Made by a program: the position numbers and the translations under genes. The notes under the pieces were generated by a model. It was not told where the DNA came from. It did no database searches and was given only the letters and a program-made list of their open reading frames with translations. Below are positions 17,958 to 24,951 of a DNA stretch of 52,352 bases, piece by piece (within the stretch, counting starts at the first letter, position 1; each line of letters starts with the position of its first letter). This stretch comes from an uncultured Pelagibacteraceae bacterium (GTDB lineage: Bacteria > Pseudomonadota > Alphaproteobacteria > Pelagibacterales > Pelagibacteraceae): positions 1-52,352 of the forward strand of contig CACEPH010000003.1 in NCBI GenBank assembly GCA_902561465.1, given 5' to 3'.

Positions 17958-17974
17958 TCAACGTAAAGTTGAAT
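17956..17974 (+). repeat. Perfect 7-bp inverted repeat ATTCAAC-GTAAA-GTTGAAT upstream of ccrM
   Basis: Read directly from sequence; arms 17956-17962 and 17968-17974. Confidence 0.85.
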
Positions 17975-17980
17975 CTAGAT

Positions 17981-19051
17981 ATGTCTAAATTTGAAAATAA
18001 AATTATAAACGGAAATTCGTTAGAGATATTAAAAAAAATTCCTGACAAAACTTTTAATTTAATTTTTGCTGACCCGCCCTACAATTTACAAATAGGAAAA
18101 AAATTAAAAAGACCAGATGATAGTAAAGTTTACGGCGTCGATGATAAATGGGACCAATTTGAAAGTTTCAAACATTATGATGATTTCTGCAAAGATTGGC
18201 TTGGGGAATGTAAAAGAGTTTTAAAAGACAATGGTAGCATCTGGGTCATTGGATCGTATCACAATATTTTTAGGCTAGGTTTTCACTTACAAAATTTAAA
18301 CTATTGGTTATTGAACGATATAGTTTGGAGAAAAAATAATCCAATGCCGAATTTTAGAGGAACAAGATTTACTAATGCGCACGAAACTTTAATTTGGGCC
18401 TCGAAAAGCAAAAAATCAAAATACACATTTAATTATCAATCTTTGAAATGTTTAAACGATGATTTGCAAATGCGTTCAGATTGGAGTTTTCCTATATGTA
18501 GCGGAAAAGAAAGATTGAAAAAGAATGGGAAAAAAGTTCATTCTACTCAAAAACCAGAAGCCCTTTTACATAGAATTATATTAGCAACTACATATAAAGA
18601 TGATGCCATATTAGACCCATTTTTAGGCACAGGAACTACCGCAGCTGTAGCAAAGAAATTAGGTAGAAAATACTTTGGTATAGAAAAGGATAAAAAATAT
18701 TTTAAAGCTGCCAATGAAAGAATTAATAAAATTAAAGCTATTGAAGAAAGTCATTTAGATACCTTGGAAAATAATAAGTCCAAACCAAGAGTGCCTTTTG
18801 GATCATTAGTTGAATTAGGAATAATTAAGCCTGGAACTAGTATTTTTGATCAAAAGAAAAAAATTAGTGCAAAAATAATGGTGGACGGGAGTATTAAACA
18901 TAAAGAGTCAGCGGGTTCTATACATAAAGTAGCAGCTAAAATAATGGGAACTGAAAGTTACAATGGTTGGACTTACTGGTATTGTAATATTGATGGATCT
19001 ATTAAACCAATAGACAGTCTTAGACAAAGATTCCTATCTAAAAATATTTAA
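17981..19051 (+). CDS. ccrM: CcrM-type adenine-specific DNA methyltransferase (predicted GANTC)
   Basis: LIFADPPYNLQ, HSTQKPEALLHRIILATT, LDPFLGTGTTAAVAKKLGR plus the CcrM-like C-terminal domain (GSIHKVAAKIMGTESYNGWTYWY). Start at ATG 17981 preferred over TTG 17969. Confidence 0.94.
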   Translation: MSKFENKIINGNSLEILKKIPDKTFNLIFADPPYNLQIGKKLKRPDDSKVYGVDDKWDQFESFKHYDDFCKDWLGECKRVLKDNGSIWVIGSYHNIFRLGFHLQNLNYWLLNDIVWRKNNPMPNFRGTRFTNAHETLIWASKSKKSKYTFNYQSLKCLNDDLQMRSDWSFPICSGKERLKKNGKKVHSTQKPEALLHRIILATTYKDDAILDPFLGTGTTAAVAKKLGRKYFGIEKDKKYFKAANERINKIKAIEESHLDTLENNKSKPRVPFGSLVELGIIKPGTSIFDQKKKISAKIMVDGSIKHKESAGSIHKVAAKIMGTESYNGWTYWYCNIDGSIKPIDSLRQRFLSKNI

Positions 19052-21151: not shown

Positions 21152-21634
21152 ATGCATTACAAACAAAATAATAAAGAAAGCAAAACTTACGTTCAAGGAC
21201 TAAGACCATTTGGTAATACTTTGCCACGGGGACTTAAAGGTATTTTAAAAAAAAATGGTTATAATTACTCAGAAATTATTAGCAAATGGAACATGTTGGT
21301 GGGAAAAGATATTGCTCAATATGCATACCCTAAATCAATTAAGATGAAAAAAAGAGATTCAAACGGAATGTTAGTTCTTGCAATTAAAAGAGGAGATGAA
21401 ATTAATGTTGAATACTCAAAAAAAAATATCATGGACAAGATAAATAGCTACTTTGGATACAAATTAATTAGTGAAATAAAAATAGAGACTCTTAATTCTA
21501 AAAATAAAAAGGTACAAAATAAAAATAAATTGGATAAGTTTTCTAAAAATTTTCAGGAAAAAATAGATCAAATTAAAAATAAAAATATAAAAAATTCACT
21601 TTTGCAACTTTTTAAAACTATTAAAAATGATTAA
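21152..21634 (+). CDS. DUF721 (DciA-like) protein
   Basis: ILKKNGYNYSEIISKWNMLVGKDIAQYAYPKSIKM. Confidence 0.78.
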   Translation: MHYKQNNKESKTYVQGLRPFGNTLPRGLKGILKKNGYNYSEIISKWNMLVGKDIAQYAYPKSIKMKKRDSNGMLVLAIKRGDEINVEYSKKNIMDKINSYFGYKLISEIKIETLNSKNKKVQNKNKLDKFSKNFQEKIDQIKNKNIKNSLLQLFKTIKND

Positions 21635-22250
21635 CTCGAATTTACATATAAAATTAATTTCTCTTGTTAAAATTTTAATAATTTATTTTATTTTATCTAC
21701 AAAATCATATACCGAAGATTCAAAAATTGATAAAAGCTTGGTTACCATAGGCTCGTATGACGCAACTGTAAAAATAAAAATATTTTCATCTTTAACTTGT
21801 CCTCATTGTGCAAGCTTTCATAGTGAAGTAGTGCCAGAAATAATGAAAAAATTTGTTGAAACAGGTAAAGCTCAATTAATTTTTATTGATTTTCCTTTAG
21901 ACCTGGCTGCTTTTAATGCATCAAAATTATTGCACTGTATAGATCAAAAAAAACAAATAATTTTTTTAGATACTATTTATGAAACTCAAGAAAGCTGGAC
22001 TAGTGGTTCTGGTATCGAAGATATTAATGAAAATTTAAAAAAAATTGTTAAAAATTTGGGGATAAATTCTTCTCAATTTGACAAATGCTTAATTGACGAA
22101 TCTATAAGTGATAAAATATTAAATGGCAGAATTGAAGGAAACAAAAAATATTCCATTAATTCCACACCAACTATTATAATAAACGAGAAAAAACTTGAAG
22201 GTTCTGCTAGTTTTAAAAACATAAAAAAAAGAATTGAAAAAATTATTTAA
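21627..22250 (+). CDS. DsbA-family thiol:disulfide protein
   Basis: Signal peptide; IKIFSSLTCPHCASFHSEVVPEIMKKF CPHC motif; NSTPTIIINEKKLEG. Confidence 0.9.
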   Translation: MINSNLHIKLISLVKILIIYFILSTKSYTEDSKIDKSLVTIGSYDATVKIKIFSSLTCPHCASFHSEVVPEIMKKFVETGKAQLIFIDFPLDLAAFNASKLLHCIDQKKQIIFLDTIYETQESWTSGSGIEDINENLKKIVKNLGINSSQFDKCLIDESISDKILNGRIEGNKKYSINSTPTIIINEKKLEGSASFKNIKKRIEKII

Positions 22251-22255
22251 AAAAT

Positions 22256-24652
22256 ATGAAATTTAAAAAACTTGATCTAACCGGATTTAAATCTTTTGTA
22301 GAAAGAACATCAATTTCTATTGAAAACGGGTTAACAGGAATTGTAGGGCCCAATGGCTGCGGTAAATCAAATATAGTTGAATCTATTAGATGGTGTATGG
22401 GTGAAAGTTCTGCAAAAAGCATGAGAGGATCTGGAATGGAAGATGTAATATTTTCAGGTACAGCTAATAAAGCATCCAAGAACATAGCTGAAGTTTCTTT
22501 AACTTTAGATAATTCTGATAAAGATGGGCCCATCCAATTTAAAGAGCTAGATATAATTAATGTAAAAAGAAGAATACAAAAAGATAAGGGATCAAGATAT
22601 TTTATAAATGACAAAGAAATGAGAGCCAGGGATATCCAAACTCTTTTTGCTGATTTGTCAACTGGTGCTCATTCGCCTTCGATGATTAGCCAAGGAAGGA
22701 TCGGAGCTCTGGTTACTGCAAAACCTACAGATCGAAGAGCAATACTTGAGGAAGCTGCTGGAATTTCAGGCATTCATGTGAGAAGGCATGAATCTGAGCT
22801 TAGGCTCAATTCTGCAGAAAATAATTTAAGAAAGGCAGATGATCTAAGAAGACAACAAGAAAAACAATTAGAAAATTTAAAAAAACAAGCCGTGGATGCT
22901 TCAAAATATAAAAATATTTCTGAAGAAATAAAAAAAATAGAAGCAGGACTTTATTATATAAAGTCTAAAGAAATCGAAAAGGAAATAAATTCAACAAAAA
23001 ATATTACTGATGAATCTGATGATAAAATAAATAATTTAAAAAGTTTGATAGATGAAAAAAATAATTCCCTAGAAAAAGCTAATTTAAATCTAAAACCACT
23101 AAGAGATAAAAATATGGAAATATTATCTAAATTACAAAGACTTAATTTAGAACTCCAAAATTTAGAGGATGAAGAAAAAAGAATTAAAACAGATAAAGAT
23201 AGACTACAGAAATCTCAAGATACGCTTACAGATGATATTGAGAGAGAGAAAAATATTATTTTAGAAGCAACGTCAAATGAAAAGAGACTTAAAGAAGAAA
23301 AAAATGAATTAATTGAGATAGACTCGAAATACTACGATACAGAAAAAAAATCTAACGAAGACTTGAATGTTACAAAAAACAGATTAGCGGCCGAGATAGA
23401 CAAAGTTAAAGAGTTGGTAAATGCTCAGAAAAATGATGAAGCAATAGCTGCCCTTGATAACTTTAAAACAATCATAGAAGTATATGCAGATAGTTACAGT
23501 AAAAATCAAAATATAAAAAATGAGTCTATAAAAAGAAAAGAAAGAATTAGCACGATCGATACAGAAATAGAAAGTTGGAAAAATTTAAAATTTAATTCAG
23601 AAAAGATGTCAAATGAATTAAATGAAAGAATAAATAAGGTAAAAACTGATTTAGAAAATATAGCAAAATTACCAGAAGAAGTTGCTGAAAAGAAAGGGAT
23701 GCTTACTCAAAATACATCTGATACAGAAAATAAAAAACAAGAATTATCAAATGATCTAATTAAAGCTGAAGAAGAATATCAAACTGTAAATAAGGAATTA
23801 AGGGAAGTCGAACAACAAATGATTGTCGCTAGAGAAAATAAGGCAAGATCTGGAGCAACTTTAGAAGGTCTTGAAAATAGGAAAAAAGATCTAATAAATA
23901 CCTTAAAAAATGACCTTAACATTGAAGAAAAAGATTTATTAGAAAATTCTGATTTAAAAAACATAGAAGAATTACCTAATGTAATTGAACAAGAAGACAA
24001 ACTAGACGCAAAAAAAAATGAGAGAGAGAAACTTGGTTCGGTAAATTTAAGAGCTGATGAAGAAACTCAAATATATAAAGATGAAATTAAAAAAATGGAA
24101 AACGACAGAGAAGATTTGGTAACAGCAATATCTAAACTTAGAGCAAGTATAAACGAACTTAACCAAAAAGGTAGGGAAAGACTTTTGGATGCGTTTGAAA
24201 AAGTTAATAGTAAATTTAATGATGTGTATACAAAACTTTTTAGTGGAGGAACTGCAAAATTAGAATTTGTTGAATCTGAAGATCCTTTAGATGCGGGACT
24301 TGAACTTTTAGTAAGTCCACCTGGCAAAAGATTACAGTCTATTACATTACTGTCTGGTGGTGAACAAGCTCTAACCGCGTTATCTTTAGTGTTCGCCGTT
24401 TTTTTAACAAGCCCCGCTCCTATTTGTGTATTGGATGAAGTGGATGCTCCACTAGATGATGCAAATGTTACTAGGTTTTGCTCATTATTAGAAGAACTAA
24501 CAAAAATTACTGAAACTAAATTCATAATAATTACACACCACCCTTTGACTATGTCGAAAATGGACAGATTGTATGGAGTGACTATGCCAGAAAAAGGTAT
24601 AAGCCAATTAGTCTCTGTAGATTTAGAAAAAGCAGAAGAATTAGTTGCATAA
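22256..24652 (+). CDS. smc: Chromosome segregation SMC protein, unusually short (798 aa)
   Basis: Walker A GPNGCGKSNIVESIRWCMGE; signature LLSGGEQALTALSLVFA; Walker B PAPICVLDEVDAPLDDANVTRF; long coiled coil between. Confidence 0.93.
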   Translation: MKFKKLDLTGFKSFVERTSISIENGLTGIVGPNGCGKSNIVESIRWCMGESSAKSMRGSGMEDVIFSGTANKASKNIAEVSLTLDNSDKDGPIQFKELDIINVKRRIQKDKGSRYFINDKEMRARDIQTLFADLSTGAHSPSMISQGRIGALVTAKPTDRRAILEEAAGISGIHVRRHESELRLNSAENNLRKADDLRRQQEKQLENLKKQAVDASKYKNISEEIKKIEAGLYYIKSKEIEKEINSTKNITDESDDKINNLKSLIDEKNNSLEKANLNLKPLRDKNMEILSKLQRLNLELQNLEDEEKRIKTDKDRLQKSQDTLTDDIEREKNIILEATSNEKRLKEEKNELIEIDSKYYDTEKKSNEDLNVTKNRLAAEIDKVKELVNAQKNDEAIAALDNFKTIIEVYADSYSKNQNIKNESIKRKERISTIDTEIESWKNLKFNSEKMSNELNERINKVKTDLENIAKLPEEVAEKKGMLTQNTSDTENKKQELSNDLIKAEEEYQTVNKELREVEQQMIVARENKARSGATLEGLENRKKDLINTLKNDLNIEEKDLLENSDLKNIEELPNVIEQEDKLDAKKNEREKLGSVNLRADEETQIYKDEIKKMENDREDLVTAISKLRASINELNQKGRERLLDAFEKVNSKFNDVYTKLFSGGTAKLEFVESEDPLDAGLELLVSPPGKRLQSITLLSGGEQALTALSLVFAVFLTSPAPICVLDEVDAPLDDANVTRFCSLLEELTKITETKFIIITHHPLTMSKMDRLYGVTMPEKGISQLVSVDLEKAEELVA

Positions 24653-24666
24653 ATAATTAAAAGATA

Positions 24667-24951
24667 ATGAAAAAAATTAAGGAAATTACAACTCGCCTAG
24701 AAATTGCAAAAAAAAATATTAACAATAATCAAAAAAATGATAAGAGTTCAAATGCCGCATCTTTGGGCAAAGCTTTGAAAATTAGTACCGAATTAGTTGC
24801 TGCTGTATTTGTAGGTTCAACAATAGGGTTTCTTTTGGACAATTGGTTTGATACTAAACCGCTGTTAACAATTTGTTTTTTTTTTATAGGCGTAGCTGCT
24901 GGTATATTAAATGTATTTAAATCAGCAAAAAAAATGCATAAAAAAATATAA
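24667..24951 (+). CDS. atpI: AtpI-like ATP synthase assembly protein
   Basis: Two-TM AtpI/Gene1 pattern (LVAAVFVGSTIGFLLDNWFDTKPLLTICFFFIGVAAGILNVFK); first in the Fo operon. Confidence 0.85.
   Translation: MKKIKEITTRLEIAKKNINNNQKNDKSSNAASLGKALKISTELVAAVFVGSTIGFLLDNWFDTKPLLTICFFFIGVAAGILNVFKSAKKMHKKI

Follow-up and report, generated by a model that had tools for sequence, protein, structure and literature searches.

Smc of SAR11 bacteria lacks the hinge and is predicted to end in a short helical apex

Introduction

The locus described here raises the question of whether a bacterial Smc protein with intact ATPase heads can do without its hinge, and what would hold two such proteins together. 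The hinge counts as essential if SMC proteins are to dimerise, and roles as a gate and a binding site for DNA have been discussed for it. The DNA stretch analysed (the window, 52,352 nucleotides) belongs to a Pelagibacteraceae (SAR11) genome, G000, of which it forms one contig. This genome is 63% complete; SAR11 bacteria are among the most abundant in the ocean. An initial annotation, made from the window alone, described one of its genes as a short SMC with complete heads and no recognisable hinge. The gene was compared with relatives across the order and the class.

Results

The 798-aa open reading frame scored 705.3 bits against the NCBIfam equivalog TIGR02168 (SMC_prok_B; cut-off 567.35). 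Solved bacterial Smc heads matched both ends of the protein in a PDB search. Smc heads, e.g. 5xei and 5h68, were also retrieved when the AlphaFold2 (AF2) model was searched with Foldseek; the best 50 matches covered head and coil only and included no relative of the apex. Walker A, signature and Walker B are nearly invariant among 77 relatives and conserved in 123 distinct short sequences, in agreement with the earlier description of a single frame with all three motifs rather than a frameshift fragment. Identity with Rad50/SbcC or RecN was considered and rejected, the best Rad50 model giving 44.8 bits (cut-off 1087) and the RecN HMM 40.8 bits (cut-off 407.85).

The order around the gene is mutY (opposite strand), dciA, a DsbA-like gene, smc and the F0 ATP synthase genes. 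A similar order is found beside smc in two genomes with a hinge-bearing protein, G067 and G223, and also in G060, and the window gene thus lies at the orthologous smc locus. Judged from its sequence, the frame is the authentic orthologous smc of a SAR11 bacterium. A DNA methyltransferase is encoded near the dciA-dsbA-smc cluster (window 17969-19051); judged by a motif, it resembles CcrM, the cell-cycle methylase. G067 and G060 encode a similar protein close to smc.

Table 1. Positions in the window of smc, its predicted parts and its neighbours.
Feature	Position	Strand	Basis
smc, hinge-less SMC protein, 798 aa	22256..24652	+	open frame; NCBIfam TIGR02168
ATPase head, N-terminal half (aa 1-165)	22256..22750	+	PDB bacterial Smc heads, E down to 2.6e-103; AF2 model
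Walker A, GPNGCGKSN (aa 31-39)	22346..22372	+	in 123/123 distinct short SMCs
N-terminal arm of coiled coil (aa 173-389)	22772..23422	+	AF2 helices 173-246, 255-389
Apex, hydrophobic helical hairpin at hinge site (~aa 376-415)	23381..23500	+	hydrophobicity rank; alignment to hinge-bearing alphaproteobacteria
Predicted hairpin turn AQK (aa 390-392)	23423..23431	+	AF2 model m3d551eaeb36b, pLDDT ~78-84 nearby
C-terminal arm of coiled coil (aa 393 to ~640)	23432..24175	+	AF2 helices 393-554, 600-662, low-confidence break between
ABC signature, LLSGGEQ (aa 698-704)	24347..24367	+	conserved motif
Walker B, ICVLDEVD (aa 723-730)	24422..24445	+	conserved motif
mutY, precedes the dciA/DsbA-like/smc run		opposite	
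dciA homologue (helicase loader), upstream neighbour, conserved order	21152..21634	+	Pfam DciA 6.8e-12
DsbA-like thioredoxin, immediately upstream of smc	21627..22250	+	Pfam Thioredoxin_4 2.1e-35
atpI-like gene, first of downstream F0 ATP synthase cluster	24667..24951	+	Pfam ATPase_gene1 2.9e-17

The survey covered 58 genomes of the SAR11 order and 114 of the alphaproteobacterial class, among them presumably HTCC1062 (G157), HTCC7211 (G158) and HIMB59 (G067). Three sequence sets were used: 77 aligned homologues, 123 distinct short SMCs and 38 distinct proteins of 798 aa. Relatives that bear a name, at 86-89% identity, come from single cells or metagenomes (e.g. AG-333-E23 and AG-414-E02). Internal stop codons were seen in smc of two SAR11 drafts (G290:C2:149622-150920 and G001:C25) and are probably sequencing errors. 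In many small alphaproteobacterial genomes, G043, G044, G054 and G101 among them, nothing matched SMC convincingly (best E between 1e-4 and 1e-9), and Smc seems to be missing altogether from some lineages of the class.

Complete open smc frames in SAR11 encode 798-891 aa, and both 798- and 858-aa forms are present within the genus of the window. In most other alphaproteobacteria the protein has ~1,120-1,180 aa. A few have longer reading frames; those of G063, G068, G220 and G224 (1,426-1,531 aa) stand at the opposite extreme of length. When the SAR11 proteins were aligned with a 1,169-aa hinge-bearing relative, the alignment was good to residue ~390 and resumed at ~755-770. A single block is missing, made up of the distal part of each arm (~110-130 aa) and the ~130-aa hinge. 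The remaining coil has a half-span of ~235 residues.

Pfam SMC_hinge gave no match in the 798-aa protein at E<=10. This is weak evidence, because PF06470 matches only 39 of the 114 class genomes, thus missing about two thirds of them, Caulobacter included. It was dropped as sole proof of hinge loss and a class-specific profile, A3, was used instead. A3 is a hinge alignment from alphaproteobacterial SMCs, with the motifs GYE, GQ.LVS and LWRWDG. It matched 79 of the 114 class genomes (E 1e-52 to 3e-16), essentially all those with an intact smc; the negative ones mostly have no recognisable SMC, and in G053 and G078 smc is broken over contigs. In the 58 SAR11 genomes A3 had no match at E<=10 (0/58), nor did a second SMC turn up in the searched genomes. 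Comparison of profiles gave the same picture. The profile of the 77 short SMCs aligned to A3 with a probability of 0.3% by hhalign, and every SAR11 Smc type tested against the hinge reached at most 0.1%. Two small genomes of other families of the class also have short-armed Smc proteins, G067 (864 aa) and G223 (881 aa), and in these the hinge was found by hhalign at 99.3% and 99.6%. As the hinge is detected in such short, AT-rich SMCs, its absence from SAR11 is true loss and not weak detection. From these comparisons of sequences, absence of the hinge is a trait of the whole SAR11 order and extends beyond the window genome. The Smc of G060 (817 aa, L209), outside the order, is also without a hinge by hhalign.

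The AF2 monomer of the window protein was computed with the 77 homologues. It has a helix at residues 255-389, a three-residue turn and a second helix at 393-554, mostly with pLDDT ~78-92. No globular mid-domain is present in this model of the 798-aa protein; the middle is a plain two-helix hairpin. In a model of the 863-aa type of a second family the middle is likewise all-helical, with a tip of low confidence. Both models come from shallow alignments, and their quality is medium (pTM 0.49 and 0.45). Intact heads without a hinge are therefore seen with the A3 profile, in the alignment to hinge-bearing relatives and in two AF2 models without a globular mid-domain. The protein is set apart from canonical SMC as a hinge-less variant, since the central hinge was absent by profiles, hhalign and AF2 alike.

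The middle had been read as continuous, coiled-coil-like sequence. The absence of a hinge stands, and the description can be refined, as the coil ends in a distinct apex formed by a hydrophobic helical hairpin (residues ~376-415). In the 38 distinct 798-aa proteins no other 39-residue window of the coil is as hydrophobic as this one (rank 0 of 425), and about a dozen of its positions are almost always hydrophobic. A tip motif, KELINAxKNxEAIxxLxNxKxIIExYADSYSK, recurs in SAR11 groups whose identity to the window protein is as low as 65-69%. A conserved basic stretch (YADSYSKNQNIK..IKRKERI) follows directly after the apex. The earlier comparison with Rad50 breaks down at the zinc hook, since CXXC occurs in 0 of the 123 distinct short sequences.

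Arms and apex differ in how much their lengths vary. The N-arm segment 165-345 has exactly 181 residues in 77 of 77 sequences, down to 40% identity. The C-arm segment 426-555 has 130 residues in 71 of the 77 and 137, one heptad more, in the other six. The apex segment ranges from 80 to 166 aa across the same alignment. On the head-only tree at least seven changes between the plain and the extended apex (45-85 aa longer) are forced, even inside one genus; recombination of smc could inflate this count, and repeated exchange of a module is also possible. These results suggest that selection fixes the length of the arms rather than the fold of the tip.

Both condensin partners, whose presence the initial annotation had proposed to check, are encoded in the genome. 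On contig C1 of G000, a nagZ-like gene is followed by scpA (246 aa) and scpB (229 aa), whose frames share 4 bases. Each was found in 52 of the 58 genomes of the order. ParB was present in 24 of 26 relatives and was not found in the 63%-complete window genome. The best reading of these data is that Smc, ScpA and ScpB would make up a working condensin with a helical apex in the place of the hinge.

In the head-only tree the SAR11 Smcs group together (99/93). G067 and G223 fall among the hinge-bearing alphaproteobacteria, and it follows from this placement that, in the sampled class, short arms arose at least twice and at least one loss of the hinge took place. G060 is a weakly supported sister of SAR11 (87/57), and its position is uncertain because of its long branch. 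With a joining branch this weak, G060 and SAR11 may have lost the hinge once or separately. The hinge-less 817-aa Smc of G060 (L209/L248, G060:C16) is encoded in a 1.1-Mb genome, beside dsbA-like and ATP synthase genes. Short-armed Smcs with a hinge (L246, G067:C1:706500-714500; L247, G223:C1:494500-502000) represent an intermediate state. The sampled proteins thus form a natural series, from long arms with a hinge, through short arms with a hinge, to short arms without one. G067, which we take to be HIMB59, has a disputed place in SAR11; its Smc groups with that of G223 outside SAR11, and presence or absence of the hinge offers a discrete character for this placement.

Discussion

It is reasonable to infer that another dimer interface is needed once the hinge is gone. 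The reading we favour, with a probability of about 0.6, is a working Smc-ScpAB condensin with shortened arms, in which a helical apex stands where the hinge was and probably forms a dimer. Smc would be the motor subunit of this condensin, loaded by ParB. In the ancestor of SAR11 each arm would have lost about one coiled-coil superhelical repeat (~110-130 aa), and a short all-helical apex would have taken the place of the alpha/beta hinge. The hydrophobic hairpin tips of two Smc chains may pack into a four-helix bundle that holds the apex together. Such a bundle would do the job of the hinge or of the Rad50 hook, without zinc. ScpA would bridge the heads and ATP would drive the usual cycle, in a ring with arms of ~235 instead of ~345 residues.

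Dimerisation at the apex is proposed because B. subtilis Smc accepts an unrelated dimeriser and not the loss of dimerisation, and because the apex has a broad conserved hydrophobic surface. B. subtilis cells in which the hinge of Smc was swapped for the Rad50 zinc hook grew normally on rich medium, whereas Smc was non-functional when hinge dimerisation was abolished (PMC5344682). The same study found that arm length has more weight than how the dimerisation domain is folded, and that arm lengths of prokaryotic Smcs have a mode at 238 aa, on which the SAR11 half-span of ~235 falls (PMC5344682). Against an apex dimer, the broad hydrophobic face could merely seal the hairpin or bind another protein, and at least seven length changes would not be expected of an interface that has to be kept, unless it can be rebuilt with ease.

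In the main alternative no apex dimer is formed at all. The two chains would then be linked solely through ScpA, which together with the ScpB dimer bridges the heads, and through ATP-dependent engagement of the heads. They would make an open clamp or V instead of a closed ring, much as in RecF- or RecN-like proteins. The absence of both hinge and zinc hook would fit such a clamp, as would the simple hairpin given by AF2, an apex free to vary in length and the retention of ScpAB. We consider it unlikely in view of the non-functional B. subtilis Smc without hinge dimerisation (PMC5344682). In addition, the length of the arms stays fixed, and the strongly conserved hydrophobicity of the tip would be purposeless beyond hairpin packing. 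Taken somewhat more widely, the proposal that the SAR11 condensin works without any apex dimerisation, as an open clamp held by the kleisin, or with a dimeriser that was made anew several times out of simple helices, can be entertained tentatively. If true, chromosome organisation by SMC would need no hinge, no hinge contact with DNA and no hinge gate.

Could the function of the hinge have moved to a separate subunit? The apex would then bind some other SAR11 protein that links the arms or contacts DNA, a role for which the conserved hydrophobic surface and the basic stretch behind the apex would be suited. This appears improbable, as the A3 search found no hinge-like sequence elsewhere in the genomes, no candidate partner gene lies beside smc, and the sequence of the apex differs widely between SAR11 groups.

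A hinge that is present, and too diverged to be recognised from sequence, is very improbable. It is brought to mind by the mid-region VEGYDDP..W of the 863/864-aa type, superficially like the start of the alphaproteobacterial hinge, VEPGYE..W; a cryptic hinge at this site was rejected, with no support from hhalign and an all-helical AF2 model. In the 798-aa type the apex of ~40 aa is too short for an alpha/beta domain of ~120 aa, strands are absent from the mid-region of both models, and hhalign gave at most 0.3% compared with at least 99% for hinge-bearing relatives of similar length. An assembly error, a frameshift or a decaying gene, to which the 63% completeness of the genome might point, can be dismissed, as 38 distinct open 798-aa homologues from independent genomes carry all motifs, complete single-contig SAR11 genomes agree, and loss in assembly is ruled out by the 123 distinct short homologues from independent single-cell and metagenome genomes. 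Thus, none of the findings that would have spoken against the initial annotation (a hinge match, a globular mid-domain, a segment lost in assembly) was obtained.

With the hinge lost, SAR11 cells may rely on a condensin that lacks a component considered essential. An order-wide natural loss of the hinge, in which ScpAB and ParB are kept, makes the need of condensin for a hinge directly testable.

Comparison with known systems

Hinge-less SMC as a kind is already known. A hinge-less clade of marine Actinomycetes has been described from metagenomes (Sussfeld et al. 2025, PMC12153180), and SAR11 Smc falls under the definition given there, an SMC head and coil that lack both hinge and CXXC. Both are oceanic, and neither has a hinged SMC alongside. 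They differ in that the one is actinobacterial, while the other is alphaproteobacterial and order-wide, with scpAB, parB and fixed arms. The host lineage, gene order and class-wide homology of SAR11 smc are alphaproteobacterial; the head tree contained no actinobacterial SMC. Should the actinobacterial clade have arisen independently, marine lineages would have lost the hinge convergently. SAR11 and Pelagibacter are not mentioned in that paper, and a search of open-licence papers returned neither a description of a hinge-less SAR11 or Pelagibacter SMC nor an experiment on SAR11 Smc; as far as this literature shows, the SAR11 case is a newly described variant. The arm-length survey of PMC5344682 was seeded with sequences of the hinge and other dimerisation domains, and hinge-less Smcs would therefore have escaped it.

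With canonical Smc (Bacillus, Caulobacter; TIGR02168) the SAR11 protein shares orthologous heads, neck, proximal arms, ScpAB partners and gene neighbourhood. In contrast to it, SAR11 Smc has no hinge, is ~300-350 aa shorter and has arms of ~235 as against ~345 residues. The Smcs of G067 and G223 are like it in short total length, short arms and similar neighbours, but differ by a clear hinge. Rad50/SbcC resembles it in a coiled coil that ends without a hinge, and a foreign tip can replace the hinge of Smc (PMC5344682); SAR11 Smc lacks the zinc-hook CXXC, however, and its head scores far under the Rad50 cut-offs. A further parallel is provided by the engineered B. subtilis proteins Smc(zinc hook) and Mini-Smc, which are artificial and viable, with a foreign dimeriser or shortened arms (PMC5344682). 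The fixed arms and variable tip of SAR11 Smc agree with these constructs. The SAR11 protein, however, occurs in nature, shows both changes at once and ends in a helical tip.
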